From a virus: 23,398 bases of DNA. The notes under the pieces are model-generated. The model was given only the letters and a program-made list of their open reading frames with translations, did no database searches and had not been told where the DNA came from. Position numbers and translations under genes: made by a program. Positions 8,536 to 23,092 of this stretch are shown in pieces. The stretch lies in IMG/VR virus record IMGVR_UViG_3300025141_000786, positions 1-23,398 of that record. One strand, 5' to 3'. Position 1 is the first letter of the stretch, and each line of letters opens with the position of its first letter.

Positions 8536-9072
8536 ATGGCAGAATTCTGGAGTTCAGCAACAACCGAGCCAAAACGCTCACATCGCTTTTTGGTTTCATT
8601 TGAGTTACCAAGTGGAACAAATAGCGAAATCTACGCAAGGACGTTTACGAAGCCCGCGTACACTATAGGTGTAACCGAGCATCAGTTCTTGGACAAGACT
8701 TTTTACTATCCCGGGCGCGTGACTTGGAATGAGATCACCATGCAGTTTGTAAATTCCCTGGTTCCAGACATGGATTTCGAACTCCAAGCTATTTTAGAAT
8801 TATCTGGCTTTCAGCTTCCCAACCTCATCGCATCGGGTGGTTCAGTCCAGAATGCTGTTACAGTCAACAAGGCAGCTGCAGTCGCAGCCCTCGGCCAAGC
8901 CGTGAAGGTATCCGAACTCGACGGAGAGGGGCAAATCATTGGCTCCTATAAGCTCAACAATCCCTTTGTTACCTCCGTATCCTATGGAACACTAGATTAT
9001 GCTACTGAAGATTTGTTAACGGTTGATATTAACCTGCGATATGACTGGGCTGTTTACTCGGTCGGCGGTTGA
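8536..9072 (+). CDS. Tail tube protein (gp19-like)
   Basis: 178 aa, near the family length (T4 gp19, 163 aa). It stacks as hexameric rings to form the inner DNA channel. Recognisable parts are the N-terminal EPKRSHRFLVSF (residues 11-22), FTKPAYTIG (37-45), FYYPGRVTWNEITMQFVNS (56-74), and the C-terminal IIGSYKLNNPFVTSVSYGTLD followed by LLTVDINLRYDWA (160-172), all expected of the tube beta-barrel. AGAGG about 8 bases before the ATG serves as SD. It directly follows the sheath gene, as 19 follows 18 in T4. A larger relative is encoded immediately downstream. Confidence 0.92.
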   Translation: MAEFWSSATTEPKRSHRFLVSFELPSGTNSEIYARTFTKPAYTIGVTEHQFLDKTFYYPGRVTWNEITMQFVNSLVPDMDFELQAILELSGFQLPNLIASGGSVQNAVTVNKAAAVAALGQAVKVSELDGEGQIIGSYKLNNPFVTSVSYGTLDYATEDLLTVDINLRYDWAVYSVGG

Positions 9073-9091: not shown

Positions 9092-10957
9092 ATGAGCATC
9101 CCCGGACCGACCCCGCCGGCAGCGAACCACTGGCCCGGTTTTTGGGATGACCCCTTCTTAGAGCCGAAACAACAACATCGTTTTCTTATCAATTTTCCGC
9201 TATTTATGCCATCCCCGGCCTTCATGGGCACCCCCACAGACACAATGCTTCTGGCCGATGATCTCATAAAAAATGGTCTCGAGCGCTGGGCCGACTCAAC
9301 GAGCGGCTTTGCTCTCAGTCATGCTCAGGCAAAGTCAGTTAATAGGGCCACCGAGGCGAAGTTCAACGCCCATCTGAAGAAGAAATTTCCACCTAAGCGC
9401 GCTGAGGAAGAACCCGCTGCGGATCCCCCCGCCGCCGGCAGAGTAACACGTGCCGGGCCCTTTACCACCGTCGACGGCGCTCCGACGAAGAGTGCACCAG
9501 CATATGGTAACATCACAGCTAACGCCAAGGCGGCCTTGACCTTGCAGGATCTTGAGAGCGCAATCGTGGGCGCTCTTCGTCCGGTCCTAGGCGGCACCGG
9601 GTTGTCCACGACGGCCTGCGCGGCGTTCGTGAAGTCAGAGGCCGGGAAGTATAAAAGACTTTTCAATCAGAGGTCGAAATTGGGCCCCAACAATCCCGGC
9701 ACGCTGTCGGGCACAAAGATCACGCTAAGAGTTGGCCAGTATTTGGGGGTTTCCTTCACGCCTCCAGCCCCCAATTATCAAAGGGGAACATATGAATTCA
9801 AAACAGGCGGAACGTCTATTTATAATCCAGCCAAAGATAGTTTTGATATGGGAGAAGCCAAACTTACTATGGTGACCTCTCTTCAAGATGATTTACATTT
9901 TTCTCTCAATCTATTATATTCAATCGCCATGCTAAGGGCTTCAATCGGGACTGGTATACCAACCGGATTTCAGTTGTTTAATGATCTTATCTATGCCAAG
10001 CTCGACCCCGACGACGGTGAATCGACCGACTTTGTAGAAGACCCGAACCGAATCCTGACCATTGTAGAATATGCCGCCAGAGGCGTCTCGAAGACCGGGC
10101 CACCCCCGATGACCGCGCCGATTCCGAACAGTGCAAAAGACGGTGTTCTCAAATCTACAATTGTTGGTATTCATAAACTACGAGATCCAATTATTAAAGG
10201 GGTCAACTATTCTGAATATTCGTATGGGGGCGCTGATTTGCTTAAGGTAACTATAACTTTGGGTTATGGTGAAATCAAACCTAATCGATTTTATTCATAT
10301 GAGGTATATGATGATGACCCCTTGGCCGGCCGCCAGGGTCGATGGGACAATAAGTATCACACGCACTTCGGAGAGAGCTTCAATCGGCCCCCGAACAAGC
10401 TATTGTCGCGGCAACGTGGCCAGGACGGCGCGCCTGAGGGCTCTCTTGCAGCTTATTATACTAAGTTTCCAAACTGGTGGAGCGACAACGACGTCGCGCG
10501 ATGGCGACTGCTTCGCCCGTTTCAAAAAGACATGGTGGATTTTCGACGGCCAACGGAGGTCGTTGGAACCCGGGGCAACCCTCACCTGGGCCGCGGCGAG
10601 CGAGAGACCCACATGGCTACGGGCGCCGGCCCGGCTTTTGAGGAGGGCCTCTCTAAACGTAACACCAGAATTCGCGAGATTGCAGCAACGTATGAAGGAT
10701 ATGCCCAACAACGTCAGGTGAAGCATTCACAGCTGTATTCAGCCCGGAAGAACGGAACTCGCGAATACAGTACTGAGCGTGAGGAGTATTCTATCCCGGG
10801 AGCAGACAAACTGAACTCTCTTACAACCGGCGCCGGCCGCTGGGCTGTATCGCCCGGATCACCGGACACGGCGGGTACCGGTCATCAAGGAGAAGGCACA
10901 CCAGATCTAAATCTGCCGACGCGACCTGACTCAAGTACTCCGGATACTCCGGCCTAG
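9092..10957 (+). CDS. Expanded tail-tube-like protein, possible tube initiator (gp48/gp54 role)
   Basis: 621 aa. Its conserved blocks appear in the same order as in the neighbouring tube protein: EPKQQHRFLINF (24-35) against EPKRSHRFLVSF; FTPPAPNYQRG onward (222-264) against FTKPAYTIG onward; EAKLTMVTSLQDDLHF (255-270) against NEITMQFVNSLVPDMDF; and IVGIHKLRDPIIKGVNYSEY with LLKVTITLGYG (357-393) against IIGSYKLNNPFVTSVSYGTL with LLTVDINLRYD. Between the first and second blocks lies an insert of about 180 residues rich in A, P, K and E. After 400 follows a hydrophilic tail of about 220 residues, rich in R, G and P, probably disordered or virion-exposed. Tube-related proteins that start the tube on the baseplate (T4 gp48, gp54) are the closest known role; a decorated minor tube subunit is the alternative. 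SD AAGGGAGGG precedes the ATG. Inserts and tail are much more GC-rich than the core. Confidence 0.6.
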   Translation: MSIPGPTPPAANHWPGFWDDPFLEPKQQHRFLINFPLFMPSPAFMGTPTDTMLLADDLIKNGLERWADSTSGFALSHAQAKSVNRATEAKFNAHLKKKFPPKRAEEEPAADPPAAGRVTRAGPFTTVDGAPTKSAPAYGNITANAKAALTLQDLESAIVGALRPVLGGTGLSTTACAAFVKSEAGKYKRLFNQRSKLGPNNPGTLSGTKITLRVGQYLGVSFTPPAPNYQRGTYEFKTGGTSIYNPAKDSFDMGEAKLTMVTSLQDDLHFSLNLLYSIAMLRASIGTGIPTGFQLFNDLIYAKLDPDDGESTDFVEDPNRILTIVEYAARGVSKTGPPPMTAPIPNSAKDGVLKSTIVGIHKLRDPIIKGVNYSEYSYGGADLLKVTITLGYGEIKPNRFYSYEVYDDDPLAGRQGRWDNKYHTHFGESFNRPPNKLLSRQRGQDGAPEGSLAAYYTKFPNWWSDNDVARWRLLRPFQKDMVDFRRPTEVVGTRGNPHLGRGERETHMATGAGPAFEEGLSKRNTRIREIAATYEGYAQQRQVKHSQLYSARKNGTREYSTEREEYSIPGADKLNSLTTGAGRWAVSPGSPDTAGTGHQGEGTPDLNLPTRPDSSTPDTPA

Positions 10958-11020: not shown

Positions 11021-11893
11021 TTGACACGTAGAAACAACGCAGACAGAGTGGGGGCCCCCCAACCTGATGCACCCAACATACCAGAAAATTTGTCATCTGA
11101 ACAACATGCAGATCCTCTGTCATTTGTTGTTCCGACCGAATTTATCACACTTCCGTCCCAAGGGCAATATTATCCCGAAGGACATCCTCTTCACAATGAA
11201 GAGACGGTGGAGATAAAATTCATGACAGCAAAAGAGGAAGATTTATTAACCTCTAAATCCTTATTGGAAAGGGGCATTGTACTGGATCGGCTAATCGACA
11301 GTCTGCTCGTGAATAAAAGGCTTCAGTCGCGAGACCTATTGGTGTGCGATAGAAATGCTATCCTAATCCAGGCACGATCTTCGGGCTATGGTTCTGACTA
11401 TACTACACAGATAGTATGCAAACAATGTACGGCAACAGATTCTTATCATTATGATCTTAATTCGGCAGCCGTTGAATTCCCTCTCGAACCAGCCGCTTTG
11501 TCAGAGATGTTGGTTGAGCACATCGGCCATGGCTTATTTAGAGCCACTATTCCAATGTCCAATGTGGAAGTCACTTTCAGACTTCTTAACGGTCACGATG
11601 AAAGAAGAATGACCGATAATTCTGAGAGACGCAAGAAGAAGAAGCAAGATGACCGTCTTATTACCGATCAACTAAAATTAATGTTGGTATCCGTGATGGG
11701 TCATGATGAACCAGACCTGATTAACAGGTTCGTTGAATCTCTACCACTAAGAGATTCCCGGTTTTTGAGAAAATTATATGAAACAGTAACTCCTTCAATA
11801 GAGTTACGACAGGAGTTTGTCTGTGCCGAGTGTGGGCACGAAGACGACATCAAATTTCCTTTTACAACCGACTTTTTTTGGCCTGACATCTGA
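11021..11893 (+). CDS. Baseplate hub assembly protein (gp26/gp51 family)
   Basis: 290 aa. In T4, gp26 and gp51 are needed to assemble the baseplate hub. The family signature is clear: PTEFITLPSQGQYYPEGHPL (38-57), then VEIKFMTAKEEDLLTSKSLL (63-82), then GIVLDRLIDSLLVNK and D110-R-N-A-ILIQAR-SSGYGSDY. Two CxxC pairs, C133/C136 and C268/C271, could bind one zinc ion together. Residues 195-215 are very basic. The start is TTG with GAGGTG four bases upstream; the first Met (68) is inside the conserved domain, so the TTG is favoured. The gene ends TTT-TTT-TGG-CCT-GAC-ATC-TGA, and a different frame stays open across this end into the next ORF. Its location just before the tape measure fits an assembly-factor role. 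Confidence 0.85.
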   Translation: MTRRNNADRVGAPQPDAPNIPENLSSEQHADPLSFVVPTEFITLPSQGQYYPEGHPLHNEETVEIKFMTAKEEDLLTSKSLLERGIVLDRLIDSLLVNKRLQSRDLLVCDRNAILIQARSSGYGSDYTTQIVCKQCTATDSYHYDLNSAAVEFPLEPAALSEMLVEHIGHGLFRATIPMSNVEVTFRLLNGHDERRMTDNSERRKKKKQDDRLITDQLKLMLVSVMGHDEPDLINRFVESLPLRDSRFLRKLYETVTPSIELRQEFVCAECGHEDDIKFPFTTDFFWPDI

Positions 11894-12125
11894 TTACCAC
11901 GAGAATATTTATGAGCAGTTTTTCTTCTTGAAGTATTATGGTGGGTGGGGTCTTATGGAGGCCTATAATCTACCTATTAAACTGCGCGAGTGGTTTGTAA
12001 AAAGACTGAAAAAACAGCTAGATGCCGAAGCAGCGGCCATGAAGGGTTCGAGCAAGGGAGGCGGGGGATCTACATCCTTGGGCCCCGGCCTAAACGCGCC
12101 TCGCCAACGGAAGCCATCAAAATAG
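11817..12125 (+). CDS. Overlapping ORF: possible frameshift extension of the gp26/gp51-like protein
   Basis: The protein-like part starts at about 11880 and reads GLTSDYHENIYEQFFFLKYYGGWG, LMEAYNLPIKLREWFVKRL and then a basic, glycine-rich, probably flexible end. Upstream of that, this frame only shadows the conserved zinc region of the gp26/gp51-like gene. The first ATG inside (11955) would cut off the conserved start. Two ways to make the product: a +1 (or -2) ribosomal shift at the T7 run 11873-11879, or internal initiation at GTG 11823, which has AGGAG at 11811-11815 seven bases before it (TTG 11817 is too close to that SD). Many tail operons make a G/GT-type fusion just upstream of the tape measure, and the N-x-P-x-x-x-R-x-W/F pattern resembles such extensions. 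The coding nature is quite sure, the start is not. Confidence 0.6.
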   Translation: MSVPSVGTKTTSNFLLQPTFFGLTSDYHENIYEQFFFLKYYGGWGLMEAYNLPIKLREWFVKRLKKQLDAEAAAMKGSSKGGGGSTSLGPGLNAPRQRKPSK

Positions 12126-12170: not shown

Positions 12171-12506
12171 ATGTCTGACGAATTACAGCCCATTGTCATT
12201 AATCTAAACGCCAACAAAGAAGGTTTGGTCAACGAGAGCTGGCTAGCCATGTTTGGTGGCGCAATCGAAATGGTACTTAAGCGCATGTTCGGTGGTGTAA
12301 AGCCTTACGAAAGTAACGTTTCTGTAACAGGCACCCCATCACAGGTTGCAGCTTTTGGGACCGCCCTGGGGAAAGAAAAGAAATATATGGAGACTTTTCT
12401 TAAATACGGACTTAATGACCCTCGTTCATTTTCTTCGAAAGCACAATTAAATACGGCTATTGCTAATTTCGAACGAGAGACAAGTATTAAATGGCCATTT
12501 AATTAA
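12171..12506 (+). CDS. Small protein of unknown function before the tape measure
   Basis: 111 aa, soluble, near-neutral, no signal peptide or membrane segment. The N-terminal strand IVINLNANKEG is followed by a helix with WLAMFGGAIEMVLKRMFGG, then a strand VSVTGTPSQVAAFGTALGKEKKYMETFLKYGLNDP and a C-terminal helix ending IKWPFN. I do not recognise a family. GAGGG lies about 8 bases before the ATG. Its place between the gp26/gp51-like genes and the tape measure suggests an assembly factor or tape-measure partner, by position only. Confidence 0.8.
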   Translation: MSDELQPIVINLNANKEGLVNESWLAMFGGAIEMVLKRMFGGVKPYESNVSVTGTPSQVAAFGTALGKEKKYMETFLKYGLNDPRSFSSKAQLNTAIANFERETSIKWPFN

Positions 12507-12524: not shown

Positions 12525-15077
12525 ATGGCCAACGACAAAATATCACAAGAAGAGCTTAAGCTCATTACCAGCGCGCTTGAGAAGCAAAAGCAGAAGTTGG
12601 CTCTTACTGAAGCCGAAACCAAAGCCCTCAAAGATAATAACATTGAGCTCAATAAGTCTTCGCAACATTTGACAAATGACCTAAAGAACGCGGAACGTTA
12701 TTTAGAAATAATGAAAGAGCGCCTCACCCTCGGCGGTAAGCTTAGTGATGTGATTGCTAAACAAAATGAAATGCGCAGCATCGAGGCGCGCCTGGCGGAG
12801 TCCAAACTCCGCGATACTAATGATTATATTAATAACTATGCAGAGAAGGAATTGCAGCTTAGAGCAGATATAAAGGCCATAGAGGATGAAATCCTGAAAA
12901 TCCAGTACGACCAGCAGACGGTCTCTAAAGAAGAAGGCGACGAACTCACAAAAATACTTAAGAAAAAAGAGGACGAGCGCAAGAACAAGAAAAAAGATCT
13001 TGAGGATGGAAAGAAAAAACTACAAGAGCAAGAAGACCTGAACAAAGAGCTCACCAAAGAAGCTAAGATCCGGGCAGACGTTAGAGACAGCACAAAAAAC
13101 ATCCAAGGCTCTGTTAAACAATTTGCAAAAACCTTCCTTGGGGTTACCGACCTAAGCGAGAGTTTCTCCGGCCAAATGATAGAGGCGGTGCAGGCCCAGA
13201 AGGAGCTTCTTGAATTAGAGGGCGAAGCCGCGGATACATCGGGCACGGCTGCGCTGTTGAAGGTTATGAAGGATCTTAAGCAAGTCATGGATGACATGAC
13301 GGATCCTTTGAAACTAAGCTTAATGTTCCTTCAGAAAGTCGCTGAGTCGACTGCTGGGTTTATAAAAAACCTAGACGGTGCTATAGGCGATTTCCGCAAA
13401 ACCACAGGCATCACCAGTACCACAATGGGCGACATGCAGGAGAACATGGTGGATGTGCAAAGGGCCAACCTGCGATTCGGGGCCACACTTCAAGAAACTG
13501 GTGCTGCGCAGGCTGCCCTCGTGACCGAAATGGCTGCCTATACCACCATGAACGAAAAAGCACAGAAACAGGTTCTTAAGACTACCGTGCTGCTACAAGA
13601 GTTCGGTGTTTCAGCTGACACCACAGCACAGATCTTCGATCTCTTCACCAAGGGAATGGGGTACACCTCCGACGAACTTGAAGATCTCAGCCTTAGTTTA
13701 ATGTCTACGGCAGATGCTTTAGGAATGCCACCACAGGTTATTTTCTCTGAATTCGCGGCTGCGTCGACAGAGCTTGCAAAGTACGGCGGGGACATGGAAG
13801 GTGTTTTCAAGGGTTTAGCGGAGCAGTCCAAGAATACGGGCATAGCTATCGGGGATCTAATTGGTATCACAAAGCAATTTGATACTTTCCGCGAAGCCGG
13901 CGAATCAGTCGGCAAGCTCAACGCTATTCTAGGCGGTCCATACTTAAATGCCATAAACATGGTATACATGACAGAAGCCCAGCGCGTTAAGGCCTTAAGG
14001 GAGAGTGTAAGGGCCTCGGGCCGTCAATTCGATGATCTTGAGCGCCACGAAAAGCAAGCAATCGCTACGGCTGCGGGAATTTCTGATATGTCCAAGGCAG
14101 CCAAATTGTTCGGCGGCACCAATAAAGAATTCGCCGAGAACGCCAAGTCGATGAAGGAACTACAAGAGAAGGCCGCGAAAGCCCAGAAAGTATCAGAGAA
14201 GTTTAGTCAAGCAATGATGGCCCTCGCTATTGCTGCAGCCCCGCTGGTTGATATTTTCGCATTTTTTGCCGATGTTCTTATTATTATGATGAATCCACTA
14301 GGTGAGATAAATCGCCTTCTCGGCGGCTCTGAAGGCCTCACAGCATTCCTGGGCGCCGCGACGATAGCCGTGATGTCTATCGCCGCTGCAATGAAGATTT
14401 ACACAATTGTGATTGGTAAAGCTGCTGTTGCAAATTTGGCTTTTGGTAGCACAATGGCTGTTGCCTTCGGCGCAATCATGGCCGGCGCCGCAGCCTTCGG
14501 TATTATGTACGTGCTCCTCGAACAAATCGAAGATTGGGCCGGAGCCGGCCCAAAAGCAATCGCCGGCGGCCTGCTGATAATTGCCGGTGCAATATTGGCA
14601 GTTCGAGCAGCGATGGGTGACTTTAGCGCTTTCGGTGTCGCTGCAGGAATCGGCGTGATGGTGGCCGGCATCGCAGGAGTCGCGACAGGCCTGGAAGCCT
14701 ATGACAACGGCAAGCTAGCAGGACAAGAGGTCCCTGGCGGCGTGGGTCTTGTGGCAGAAAAGGGCCCCGAGAAAATGAAGACCAAGAATGGTCAAGAATA
14801 TATGGTGAACAGTCCCTCTGTGGTCCCGCTGGGAAGGGACGACGAAGTCACAAGCCGGCAAGATACTGCCGCAGCTGCTGGCGGTGGCGGCGGTGGCGGG
14901 TTGGAGCAGACGGTCGCTTCTTTGGCGGCCGTAGTGGCCGACTTAAAATCTGCCGTTACGAGTGCCAATGAGTCTTTGGGCGAGTCGCAGACCCCGGTAC
15001 AGGTAGTAATGAATGATAAAGTAGTCGGCGAAGCAGCGCTGACGGCGGTGAAAGGCGCCTTGAGATTGGGGAGGTAA
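12525..15077 (+). CDS. Tail tape measure protein
   Basis: 850 aa. It sets tail length, fills the tube lumen and is ejected before DNA. Residues 5-200 are almost continuous charged coiled coil (KKKEDERKNKKKDLEDGKKKL and similar). Residues 230-560 are mixed helical with conserved-looking stretches such as DFRKTTGITSTTMGDM and EFGVSADTTAQIFDLFTKGM. Residues 560-726 contain several hydrophobic, Ala/Gly-rich helices that could insert in a membrane. The C-terminus has VAEKGPEKMKTKNGQEYMVNSPSVVPLG, a seven-glycine run (about 786-792) and a short helix. At about 1.5 angstrom per residue it would measure a tail near 125 nm (inference; T4 gp29 has 590 aa for a shorter tail). The SD AAGGAGG is very strong. 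Confidence 0.88.
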   Translation: MANDKISQEELKLITSALEKQKQKLALTEAETKALKDNNIELNKSSQHLTNDLKNAERYLEIMKERLTLGGKLSDVIAKQNEMRSIEARLAESKLRDTNDYINNYAEKELQLRADIKAIEDEILKIQYDQQTVSKEEGDELTKILKKKEDERKNKKKDLEDGKKKLQEQEDLNKELTKEAKIRADVRDSTKNIQGSVKQFAKTFLGVTDLSESFSGQMIEAVQAQKELLELEGEAADTSGTAALLKVMKDLKQVMDDMTDPLKLSLMFLQKVAESTAGFIKNLDGAIGDFRKTTGITSTTMGDMQENMVDVQRANLRFGATLQETGAAQAALVTEMAAYTTMNEKAQKQVLKTTVLLQEFGVSADTTAQIFDLFTKGMGYTSDELEDLSLSLMSTADALGMPPQVIFSEFAAASTELAKYGGDMEGVFKGLAEQSKNTGIAIGDLIGITKQFDTFREAGESVGKLNAILGGPYLNAINMVYMTEAQRVKALRESVRASGRQFDDLERHEKQAIATAAGISDMSKAAKLFGGTNKEFAENAKSMKELQEKAAKAQKVSEKFSQAMMALAIAAAPLVDIFAFFADVLIIMMNPLGEINRLLGGSEGLTAFLGAATIAVMSIAAAMKIYTIVIGKAAVANLAFGSTMAVAFGAIMAGAAAFGIMYVLLEQIEDWAGAGPKAIAGGLLIIAGAILAVRAAMGDFSAFGVAAGIGVMVAGIAGVATGLEAYDNGKLAGQEVPGGVGLVAEKGPEKMKTKNGQEYMVNSPSVVPLGRDDEVTSRQDTAAAAGGGGGGGLEQTVASLAAVVADLKSAVTSANESLGESQTPVQVVMNDKVVGEAALTAVKGALRLGR

Positions 15078-20512: not shown

Positions 20513-21700
20513 ATGCTTTTCCAAGCATTAGATTTAAAATCAGATTGTGTAGGGTATTATGCCAATAATGCTATAAACCCCAATTGCCCCCTTCCCTTGG
20601 AGGGAGAAACATGGGAGTTCTCCCCTCATTTACGTGGCGATCACTACGAAATAGGACAGATATACAGCCAAGGAGCGACCATTACAGCCGTTTGTCCGGA
20701 GGAGTTGAGGCAAGAATGGGAGAATATCAAGAAGACTCTCAAATCGTGCCTCAAGGCCTTTAGAACATCTCATCTATCTTTGGATGAAAATTGTTTTTAT
20801 GATGTTGTGCCTGAATACTTTCTGTATCAATACCTGGAGACAAAAAACAAGGTAACACAACATGTTTTGGATACTTACCCGCGCCCCAATAACTACGACC
20901 TTACCTATAACCTTCTAGAAATGCTTACGACGATTCGTGGACAACGCCTAAATGTTAATATTGGCTCAATTAAGCATTTGCTCACCTCTGTAAGAGGACA
21001 AAACTTTCAGCGTATGCTTCATACAGTTAAACATGTGTGCGACTATAACCCTTGGGGGACAATTACGGGCCGCTTGGCGGCAAACCCTAACAGTTTTCCA
21101 ATCCTTACAATGAACAAGGAATTTCGAGCATGCATTCTGCCAAAGAATGATTGGCTTGTGGAGCTTGATTTCAACGCAGCAGAACTAAGGACGCTATTGG
21201 CGCTAGCGGGCGTAGAACAACCGAAGAACGACATCCATGACTGGAATGTAAAGAACGTTTTTGATAGTAAGCTGACTCGAGAGGAAGCCAAGGTCAAGAC
21301 CTTCGCGTGGTTGTATTCTAGTAAGGAAAACAAGCAATTAGAGAGCCTTTATAACAAGGATTTAGTGCGAAATAAGTACTGGAATGGCTGTAAAATTGAG
21401 ACAGATTATGGTAGAATAATAGAGAACGTAGATGAGCACCATGCGCTCAATTACATCGTTCAAAGCACCACAATCGACATGGTGCATGAACAGGCTTACA
21501 AAGTCTATGAGCTTTTGAAGGGGAGAAAGAGCCACATCGCATTTCTTATTCACGACGCCGTGTATATCGACCTCGCTGATGAAGATCGAAAAGAACTTAT
21601 AAATCTCCTTGACACATTCAGGGAAACACGGTATGATATATTCAAGGTGAACGTCTCCGCTGGGAGAAACCTGGGAGAAATGAAGGAACTAAAATTATGA
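20513..21700 (+). CDS. Compact family A DNA polymerase (palm/fingers only)
   Basis: 395 aa. It carries the polymerase signature in order: GRLAANPNSFPIL (186-198, like GRLSS..PNLQNIP), motif A ELDFNAAELR (217-226, with D219, E224, R226), the O-helix pattern R256-x3-K260-x3-F264-x3-Y268, the ALNYIVQSTTIDM helix (Q317), and motif C LIHDAVYIDL (H347, D348). It ends GRNLGEM, like GxNWxEL endings of the family. Both catalytic aspartates are present, so activity is plausible. Oddities: no 3'-5' exonuclease domain; the thumb is very short; the usual Glu of HDE is Ala349; and the Gly after the O-helix Tyr is Ser. T4-like phages normally use a family B polymerase. AAGGAG (20502-20507) overlaps the stop of the structural gene before it, so both are probably translated from one message. 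Confidence 0.88.
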   Translation: MLFQALDLKSDCVGYYANNAINPNCPLPLEGETWEFSPHLRGDHYEIGQIYSQGATITAVCPEELRQEWENIKKTLKSCLKAFRTSHLSLDENCFYDVVPEYFLYQYLETKNKVTQHVLDTYPRPNNYDLTYNLLEMLTTIRGQRLNVNIGSIKHLLTSVRGQNFQRMLHTVKHVCDYNPWGTITGRLAANPNSFPILTMNKEFRACILPKNDWLVELDFNAAELRTLLALAGVEQPKNDIHDWNVKNVFDSKLTREEAKVKTFAWLYSSKENKQLESLYNKDLVRNKYWNGCKIETDYGRIIENVDEHHALNYIVQSTTIDMVHEQAYKVYELLKGRKSHIAFLIHDAVYIDLADEDRKELINLLDTFRETRYDIFKVNVSAGRNLGEMKELKL

Positions 21701-21924: not shown

Positions 21925-22235
21925 ACAAGATTTACCAGAAGCTAGTCAGGGATCGTATTCCCGAAATCATTGAGGAGACCGGCAAGGAATTCTCGGTGTG
22001 CCAAGTAAAGGACGATCGCCTCAAGGACTACGCCATGAAGAAGCTTCAAGAGGAAGTTCAGGAATTCGTTGAGGACCCCTGTGCTGAAGAGGCTGCAGAC
22101 ATTATGGAGATCTTCCACTTTATCTGCGATCGCCTAGGCATCAAAGACAGCGAAATTATGGCCCAAACTACCGCGAAGCGTATTATGCGCGGCGGCTTTG
22201 ATATGGGTTTTGTTTTAGAATGGGTTGAGGACTAA
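21921..22235 (+). CDS. MazG-like nucleotide pyrophosphohydrolase
   Basis: 104 aa, about the length of a single MazG-like all-alpha NTP pyrophosphatase domain. The start YQKLVRDRIPEII (5-17) is the usual opening of this group. The metal-binding pattern EExxE...ExxD is complete: E44-E45-x2-E48 in KLQEEVQEF and E57-x2-D60 in EEAADI. RGGF near the end is also typical. Known relatives hydrolyse (d)NTPs to monophosphates; phage versions may tune nucleotide pools or alarmone levels. The start is GTG, overlapping the previous stop (GTGA). Substrate cannot be told from sequence. Confidence 0.85.
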   Translation: MNKIYQKLVRDRIPEIIEETGKEFSVCQVKDDRLKDYAMKKLQEEVQEFVEDPCAEEAADIMEIFHFICDRLGIKDSEIMAQTTAKRIMRGGFDMGFVLEWVED

Positions 22236-23092
22236 TGATAGTTGTGGGCTTAGGGAAGGCCGGCTGTAACATTGCGAAAGCTTTTTCAAAGTTTCCGCAA
22301 TATGAGACCTATGGTATAGATACAGTTCCTGAAGCAGATATCACAATTCAAAAAAGGTCAAACCACGAACAATACGATAAGCATTTTCCTAATCTTAAGA
22401 AGAAACTTAAACTTACCGATGAAGAGATTTTTGTTATTGTCGCCGGCGCGGGCAATATTTCTGGCGGAAGCCTTCGTCTTTTAGAACAGCTAAAGAACAA
22501 TAAGACAACAGTTGTTTATATTGAGGGCGACCTGAGTATCATGTCAGAAATACAAAAAAAACAAGAGAAGGTAGTTAGCAGCATCTTGCAGGAGTATGCC
22601 AGATCTGGTAAGGTAGAAAGCATTATAATGATCAGCAACTGTGAGCTGCAGAAAACCATTGGAGACATCTCCATTATTGGTTACTATGATACACTCAATC
22701 AAGCTGTGGTTAACACACTTCACATGATGAATATATTTAAGCATAGTGAACCAGTTATTGGAAATTTTATTGTACCCTCCGACCTGAGTAGGATCGCTTC
22801 TATCGGAATTGTAGACTTGCACGAGGAAGAAGAAATAGAAAAGTGGTTTTATGACTTGACAAACGTGCGTGACGTGGTATACTACTATGGTATCAACGAA
22901 GAAGACTTAAGGAACGACGGCACTTTGTTTAAAAAAATTAATAACTTTATTAAAGCTAAGGTCAATGACCGTGTCAACGTTTCGTATGGAGTATTTAAGA
23001 CCACCTATGATCAAAAATATTGTTATTGCATTCAGTATTCATCTATGGTACAATCATATAAAGAATTGATAGACGATCAGGATATTAGCTGA
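22235..23092 (+). CDS. Tubulin/FtsZ-like GTPase homologue
   Basis: 285 aa. The layout follows FtsZ: strand MIVV then glycine-rich VGLGKAGCNIAKAF (4-17, like GVGGGGGNAV), then GIDT (27-30, like the AANTD loop), then strand IFVIVAG with AGAGNISGGSLRLLEQL (70-86) where FtsZ has GGGTGTGAAPVVAE. Strand TTVVYIEGD (91-99) leads into a helix with IQKKQEKVV, then ESIIMISNCEL (128-138, like DTLIVIPNDRL), then YYDTLNQAVVNTLHMM (150-165, the central helix). NFIVPSDLSRIASIG (177-191) falls where FtsZ has its T7 loop INVDFADVR. The tubulin signature GGGTGSG is therefore altered (GAGNISGG), so nucleotide binding or polymerisation may differ. The C-terminal domain is short and no FtsZ tail peptide is seen. 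The ATG overlaps the stop of the MazG-like gene. Confidence 0.72.
   Translation: MIVVGLGKAGCNIAKAFSKFPQYETYGIDTVPEADITIQKRSNHEQYDKHFPNLKKKLKLTDEEIFVIVAGAGNISGGSLRLLEQLKNNKTTVVYIEGDLSIMSEIQKKQEKVVSSILQEYARSGKVESIIMISNCELQKTIGDISIIGYYDTLNQAVVNTLHMMNIFKHSEPVIGNFIVPSDLSRIASIGIVDLHEEEEIEKWFYDLTNVRDVVYYYGINEEDLRNDGTLFKKINNFIKAKVNDRVNVSYGVFKTTYDQKYCYCIQYSSMVQSYKELIDDQDIS

Follow-up and report, generated by a model that had tools for sequence, protein, structure and literature searches.

Frameshifted tail chaperones of the lambda gpG/gpGT type, for which Xu 2004 is reportedly the source, consist of a short and an extended product encoded by overlapping ORFs between the tail tube and tape measure genes. 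The shift in these lambda-type systems is mostly −1; among the cases treated in a passage of the review PMC5009743, a +1 shift is called very likely in the archaeal myovirus HSTV-2. Outside the phages, the prfB (RF2) site CUU UGA combines +1 re-pairing in the P site with a pyrimidine-rich codon. For the T4-like phages, the tail assembly chaperones gp26/gp51 (TAC-N/TAC-NC) are credited to Vladimirov, Gautam & Davidson 2022 in PMC10885494 and PMC12846349. According to the former, some phages of this kind have a short gene accompanied by a longer, fused one; the latter mentions −1 signals of the poly-T type in TAC-N genes of T4-like phages. It had also been noted, and left unexplained, that cyanophage gp51 is without about 200 N-terminal residues (Sullivan et al. 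2010, PMC3037559). Frameshifted chaperones are already a known kind; the +1 version described here and its variant sites look new. Neither the +1 members, nor the variant sites, nor the decoupled pair discussed below were found in the literature searched, although Vladimirov 2022 may already cover part of this family.

The locus comes from the IMG/VR record IMGVR_UViG_3300025141_000786, and "the window" refers to the whole stretch of 23,398 nt that was analysed, which belongs to a marine virus of bacteria. The neighbouring genes are typical of a T4-related myovirus (a Gp23-type capsid protein, sheath and tail tube). ORF1 and ORF2 (11021-12125) lie between the tail tube gene and the probable tape measure gene (Table 1), the same order being found in four relatives (L081, L083, L085 and L087). 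ORF1 matched PF12322 (T4_baseplate) with E=9.3e-13 and phrog_150 with E=2.2e-17. A family search with the 850-aa ORF further downstream gave no match, and in L083, L085 and L087 the gene matching it in position carries a tape measure annotation; an uncharacterised ORF (12171-12506) is placed between the 850-aa ORF and ORF2. The structures of ORF1 and ORF2 were predicted apart. The top PDB match of the ORF1 model was the HK97 tail assembly chaperone (2ob9_B; E=0.58, prob 0.54), which is not significant, and a PDB search with the ORF2 fold gave no match.

Table 1. Features of the chaperone locus and its context, in window coordinates.
Feature	Position	Strand	Remarks
Tail tube protein (context)	8536..9072	+	phrog_4542, E=1.6e-14
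ORF1, short product (TAC-N, gp26-like)	11021..11893	+	290 aa, TTG start; PF12322 and phrog_150 matches
Predicted frameshift product (TAC-NC, gp51-like)	11021..12125	+	367 aa; translation skipping one T of 11873-11879
Rejected alternative start GTG	11823..11825	+	AGGAG at 11811-11815; not conserved
Putative +1 slip site TTT TTT TGG = TTTTTTTGG	11873..11881	+	UUU then Y in 178/178 non-redundant relatives
ORF2, +1-frame C-terminal domain (TAC-C, gp51 C-terminus-like)	11880..12125	+	three predicted helices, basic low-complexity tail
Pro codon CCT	11882..11884	+	CCT in 170/170; also read as Gly-Leu after the +1 shift
Probable tape measure protein (context)	12525..15077	+	position, length, coiled composition; 850 aa

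The first-pass annotation of this DNA had placed a run of seven T at 11873-11879, and it is indeed found there, in the ORF1 frame and near the 3′ end of the gene. This end reads ACC GAC TTT TTT TGG CCT GAC ATC TGA, the last triplet being the stop codon (11891-11893); six sense codons, and not seven as had been counted, extend from the first TTT to the stop. ORF2 is in the +1 frame relative to ORF1, which differs from the −1 direction of most lambda-type chaperones. Between 11802 and its own stop at 12123-12125, the +1 frame is uninterrupted and reads TFFGLTSDYHENIYEQFFFLKYYGGWG; the earlier observation that a +1 shift enters an open frame is confirmed. Other shifts were considered for the window: a −1 shift leads into a frame without ORF2 that closes 38 nt past the stop of ORF1. 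A −2 shift would reach the same frame as +1, but is judged unlikely because it requires re-pairing of the tRNA on codons derived from GAC/AGC.

Viral contigs were scanned with ORF1, giving 80 loci, and a homologue of ORF2 was present in the +1 frame in all 79 that extended past ORF1, as well as in the window. Added scans with the proteins of Flavobacterium immuto, LR756508 and Microcystis Mel-JY01 brought the total to 262 loci in which the stop of ORF1 is included; every one of these carried a homologue of ORF2, which was in +1 in 258 and in the other shifted frame in four. Corresponding scans for close relatives with the proteins of SP-15 and RAS14 gave one or no viral contigs. Removal of redundancy left 178 +1 loci with ORF1 identities down to ~30%, and UUU followed by U or C was found in the right frame and at the same place in all of them. 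The same pattern was repeated in 11/11 independent loci taken from bacterial and archaeal genome collections and kept outside the building of the ORF2 profile (ORF2 E-values of 1.5e-24 or better). The alignment of homologous loci, which had been suggested as a check, therefore bears out the frame (258/262) and the UUU-Y motif (178/178), and hundreds of independent loci exclude a sequencing error in the T run, the escape that had been allowed for. As to the run itself, TTT TTT TGG was the form in 136 of the 178 loci, and the variants TTT-CTT-TGG, TTT-CTA-TGG and TTC-TTT-TGG break the run, yet keep the frame.

ORF2 evolves as a coding sequence, since 3′ of the ORF1 stop the changes were distributed 24/15/62% over codon positions 1/2/3, i.e., mostly at third positions. 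The distance from the slip site to the ORF1 stop was 3, 4 or 6 codons among the 178 loci, leaving the ORF2 frame unaffected. At the site, the second Phe codon was TTT in 148/148, compared with 77% TTT elsewhere, and the proline codon following TGG was CCT in 170/170 despite a third base that is free in ORF1, as translation of GGC CTN in addition would lead one to expect. Two overlapping genes might in principle carry such a T run by chance or codon bias, with no functional coupling; in the window TTTTTTTGG was seen once versus 0.57 expected from shuffling, 44% of the shuffled windows contained it by chance, and TTT is the favoured Phe codon at the 77% given above. The slip site nevertheless exceeds chance because it is conserved across relatives, and with UUU-Y and the frame invariant over 178 divergent loci and the additional synonymous constraint on CCT, uncoupled overlap is refuted by the conservation and has a next to negligible probability.

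A separate ORF2 protein could also arise by internal initiation at GTG 11823 or at another start within ORF1, and this had been named as the competing explanation. AGGAG is present seven bases upstream of this GTG, as had been stated, and two relatives (L008 and L015) are arranged alike, so that a separate ORF2 product is possible in the window itself. In the nearest relatives (L002, L004, L009 and L013), however, no SD-preceded start is found at this position. No start codon (ATG/GTG/TTG) lies 5′ of the slip site in 50/178 loci, a start with a preceding SD-like 4-mer occurs in only 36/178, and in 40/178 there is none from the upstream stop through slip+13 codons, which makes an internal start impossible up to that point and agrees with the earlier remark that ORF2 is without a good start at its conserved boundary. 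The residues of the +1 frame 5′ of the slip are unconserved as well (entropy mostly 2-3.8 bits) and interrupted by stops as near as codon −2; the frame was closed at codons −2, −4 and −8 in 12%, 8% and 20% of the loci, and never from codon −1 on. From the slip onwards the entropy fell to 0-0.24 bits across FFGL, a drop partly owed to the conserved ORF1 residues FFWP, and a conserved ORF2 tyrosine follows at codon +7.

A homologue with its own ORF2 start had been put forward as the case that would speak against recoding, and it exists in two relatives only, L182 and L187, in which ORF2 lies in the other shifted frame, with an ATG that overlaps the ORF1 stop, as a separate gene with an N-terminal extension (L182:2700-3050, L187:2700-3000). 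Their sites read TTC TTG TAT and TTC CTT TGG, with no UUU codon left. In the tree of ORF1 this derived pair is nested among the +1 loci, which indicates that the loss of UUU-Y accompanies the gain of a start. Internal initiation as the general source of ORF2 is extremely unlikely on these grounds.

The site was found in seven forms among the 178 loci: TTT TTT TGG (136), TTT CTT TGG (26), TTC TTT TGG (7), and, more rarely, TTT CTA TGG (3), CTT TTT TGG (3), TTT TTT TAC (2) and TTT CTT TAC (1). These forms bear on the proposal that RNA polymerase slips at the T run, omitting one U or inserting two, after which ribosomes would read the altered mRNA in the normal manner. The commonest form is indeed a run of seven T, but the broken runs TTTCTTTGG, TTTCTATGG and TTCTTTTGG (29, 4 and 12 distinct loci, respectively) keep the same ORF2 frame, leaving little for polymerase slippage, which in bacteria has been described for runs of about nine (PMC5009743); this proposal is highly unlikely. 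Because the run-breaking variants retain the frame, +1 slippage of the ribosome in the P site is favoured over both polymerase slippage and internal initiation. In TTT-CTA-TGG the shift is possible only at the first UUU (UUU to UUC), and in TTC-TTT-TGG and CTT-TTT-TGG only at the second (UUU to UUU), so the rule common to all forms, as read from the aligned sites, would be a tRNA-Phe on UUU-Y.

It is very probable, in our assessment, that +1 recoding appends a second domain to the gp26/gp51-like protein, giving a short/long pair of tail assembly chaperones; the recoding site had been the main proposal of the first-pass annotation, and it is by far the best reading of the locus. The majority of the ribosomes would stop at 11893 and release the 290-aa short form. 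A fraction would slip by +1 with the tRNA-Phe on a UUU of UUU-UUU-UGG, re-pairing in the P site to the UUU one base on, and would resume at GGC 11880 in the ORF2 frame, leading to a form of 367 aa that is extended by a helical domain at the C-terminus and has a predicted junction peptide of ...TDFFGLTSDYHENIYEQ.... If the two forms act like lambda gpG/gpGT, coating of the tape measure protein would fall to the short one and recruitment of tail tube subunits to the long one, and neither would stay in the virion.

The +1 site resembles that of prfB in its re-pairing on a pyrimidine-rich codon, with CUU before U in 29 distinct relatives, and differs from it in having neither a stop codon in the A site nor a fixed SD at 3 nt. 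The A-site codon is neither a stop nor obviously rare; UGG follows the slip codon in most loci, and no other UGG is present in 143/178 ORF1s. A search for a downstream RNA structure as stimulator gave no general fold (mean fold z −0.5), and no SD-like stimulator at a fixed spacing was found among the relatives. Inside ORF2, two Rfam matches below threshold to the L2-Alphaproteobacteria leader (12064-12120 and 11948-12011; E=0.024 and 0.38) are probably due to chance.

Both gp26 and gp51 of T4 belong to PF12322, but only gp51 has an extra C-terminal domain. Going by sequence comparison, they are paralogues that match the short and the long product: gp26 corresponds to the ORF1 part only, and the C-terminus of gp51 is related to ORF2. 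T4 differs in having two paralogous genes on opposite strands in place of one gene with a +1 shift, and every non-T4 record checked had a single ORF1 gene. The relationship of the ORF2 profile to the gp51 C-terminus was weak when compared directly by hhalign (4%, E=0.01); the link passes through the cyanophage family, as the profile matched the −1-frame ORF2 of Kyanoviridae/KVP40 (95%, E=2.5e-8), which in turn matched the gp51 C-terminus (97%, E=4.5e-11). In the fused L170 protein, the phrog_150 match extends into the C-terminal part of gp51.

The first-pass annotation knew of no recoded case in this family, but −1 sites are present in several of its members. Homologous ORF1 and ORF2, with a poly-T site coding FF at the same place and ORF2 in the −1 frame, were found in cyanophages (P-SSM2, S-PM2, Syn33 and MC09), pelagiphage HTVC008M, Methylophilales phage Melnitz, Vibrio phage KVP40 and Pseudomonas phage Astolliot (Otagovirus). 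Their sites, T_TTT_TTC or T_TTT_TTT, coincide with the last sense codons of ORF1, and Stenotrophomonas phage RAS14 and LR756511 are likewise −1 with T_TTT_TTY heptamers, whereas ORF2 is in +1 in SP-15, LIS04 and GXN1, which also have FF at this position. Three SP-15-type phages of Gram-positive hosts (L085, L087 and L088) have a +1 ORF2, but FF is followed there by a conserved CC-CGA-TT stretch. Annotations of the −1 phages list ORF2 as a short gp51 of its own; five such entries from cyanophages, KVP40 and related phages carry the name "gp51 baseplate hub assembly catalyst" (L318, L319, L320, L290 and L291), and are probably misannotated C-terminal halves of a gp26 −1 frameshift product. Cyanophage and vibriophage gp51 would then seem to miss the first ~200 residues because it is only the C-terminal half of that product.

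Four changes are needed to place the four states on the tree of ORF1, with the deep order uncertain owing to long branches. We lean slightly towards the view that one chaperone family has switched among a −1 shift, a +1 shift, duplication and a separate second gene, keeping the same Phe-Phe hinge, and that the +1 form is an undescribed, stimulator-poor UUU-Y site. The two-gene arrangement of T4 would be one among several solutions. Programmed frameshifting, in the rarer +1 direction, is extended by these loci to the gp26/gp51 family in many marine and freshwater viruses, and the annotation of the gene pair can be corrected in hundreds of genomes. The forms T7, TTT-CTT, TTT-CTA, TTC-TTT and decoupled also make up a natural mutant series for dissecting +1 slippage that does not involve a stop codon.

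Three further genes of the window may be mentioned. Directly 3′ of the tail tube gene, a 621-aa protein (9092-10957) starts with a tail-tube-like motif, KQQHRFLINFP, and continues into a long C-terminal part with no matches; it is possibly an extended second tube protein. Just 3′ of the tail genes lies the gene of a protein that resembles family A DNA polymerases but is short, at 395 aa (20513-21700; PF00476, E=2.3e-14). Finally, a 285-aa protein (22235-23092) opens with MIVVGLGKAGCNIAKAF, has a second glycine-rich stretch, GAGNISGG, and a weak TrkA_N match, and is possibly a nucleotide-binding protein of the tubulin/FtsZ-like or Rossmann type.
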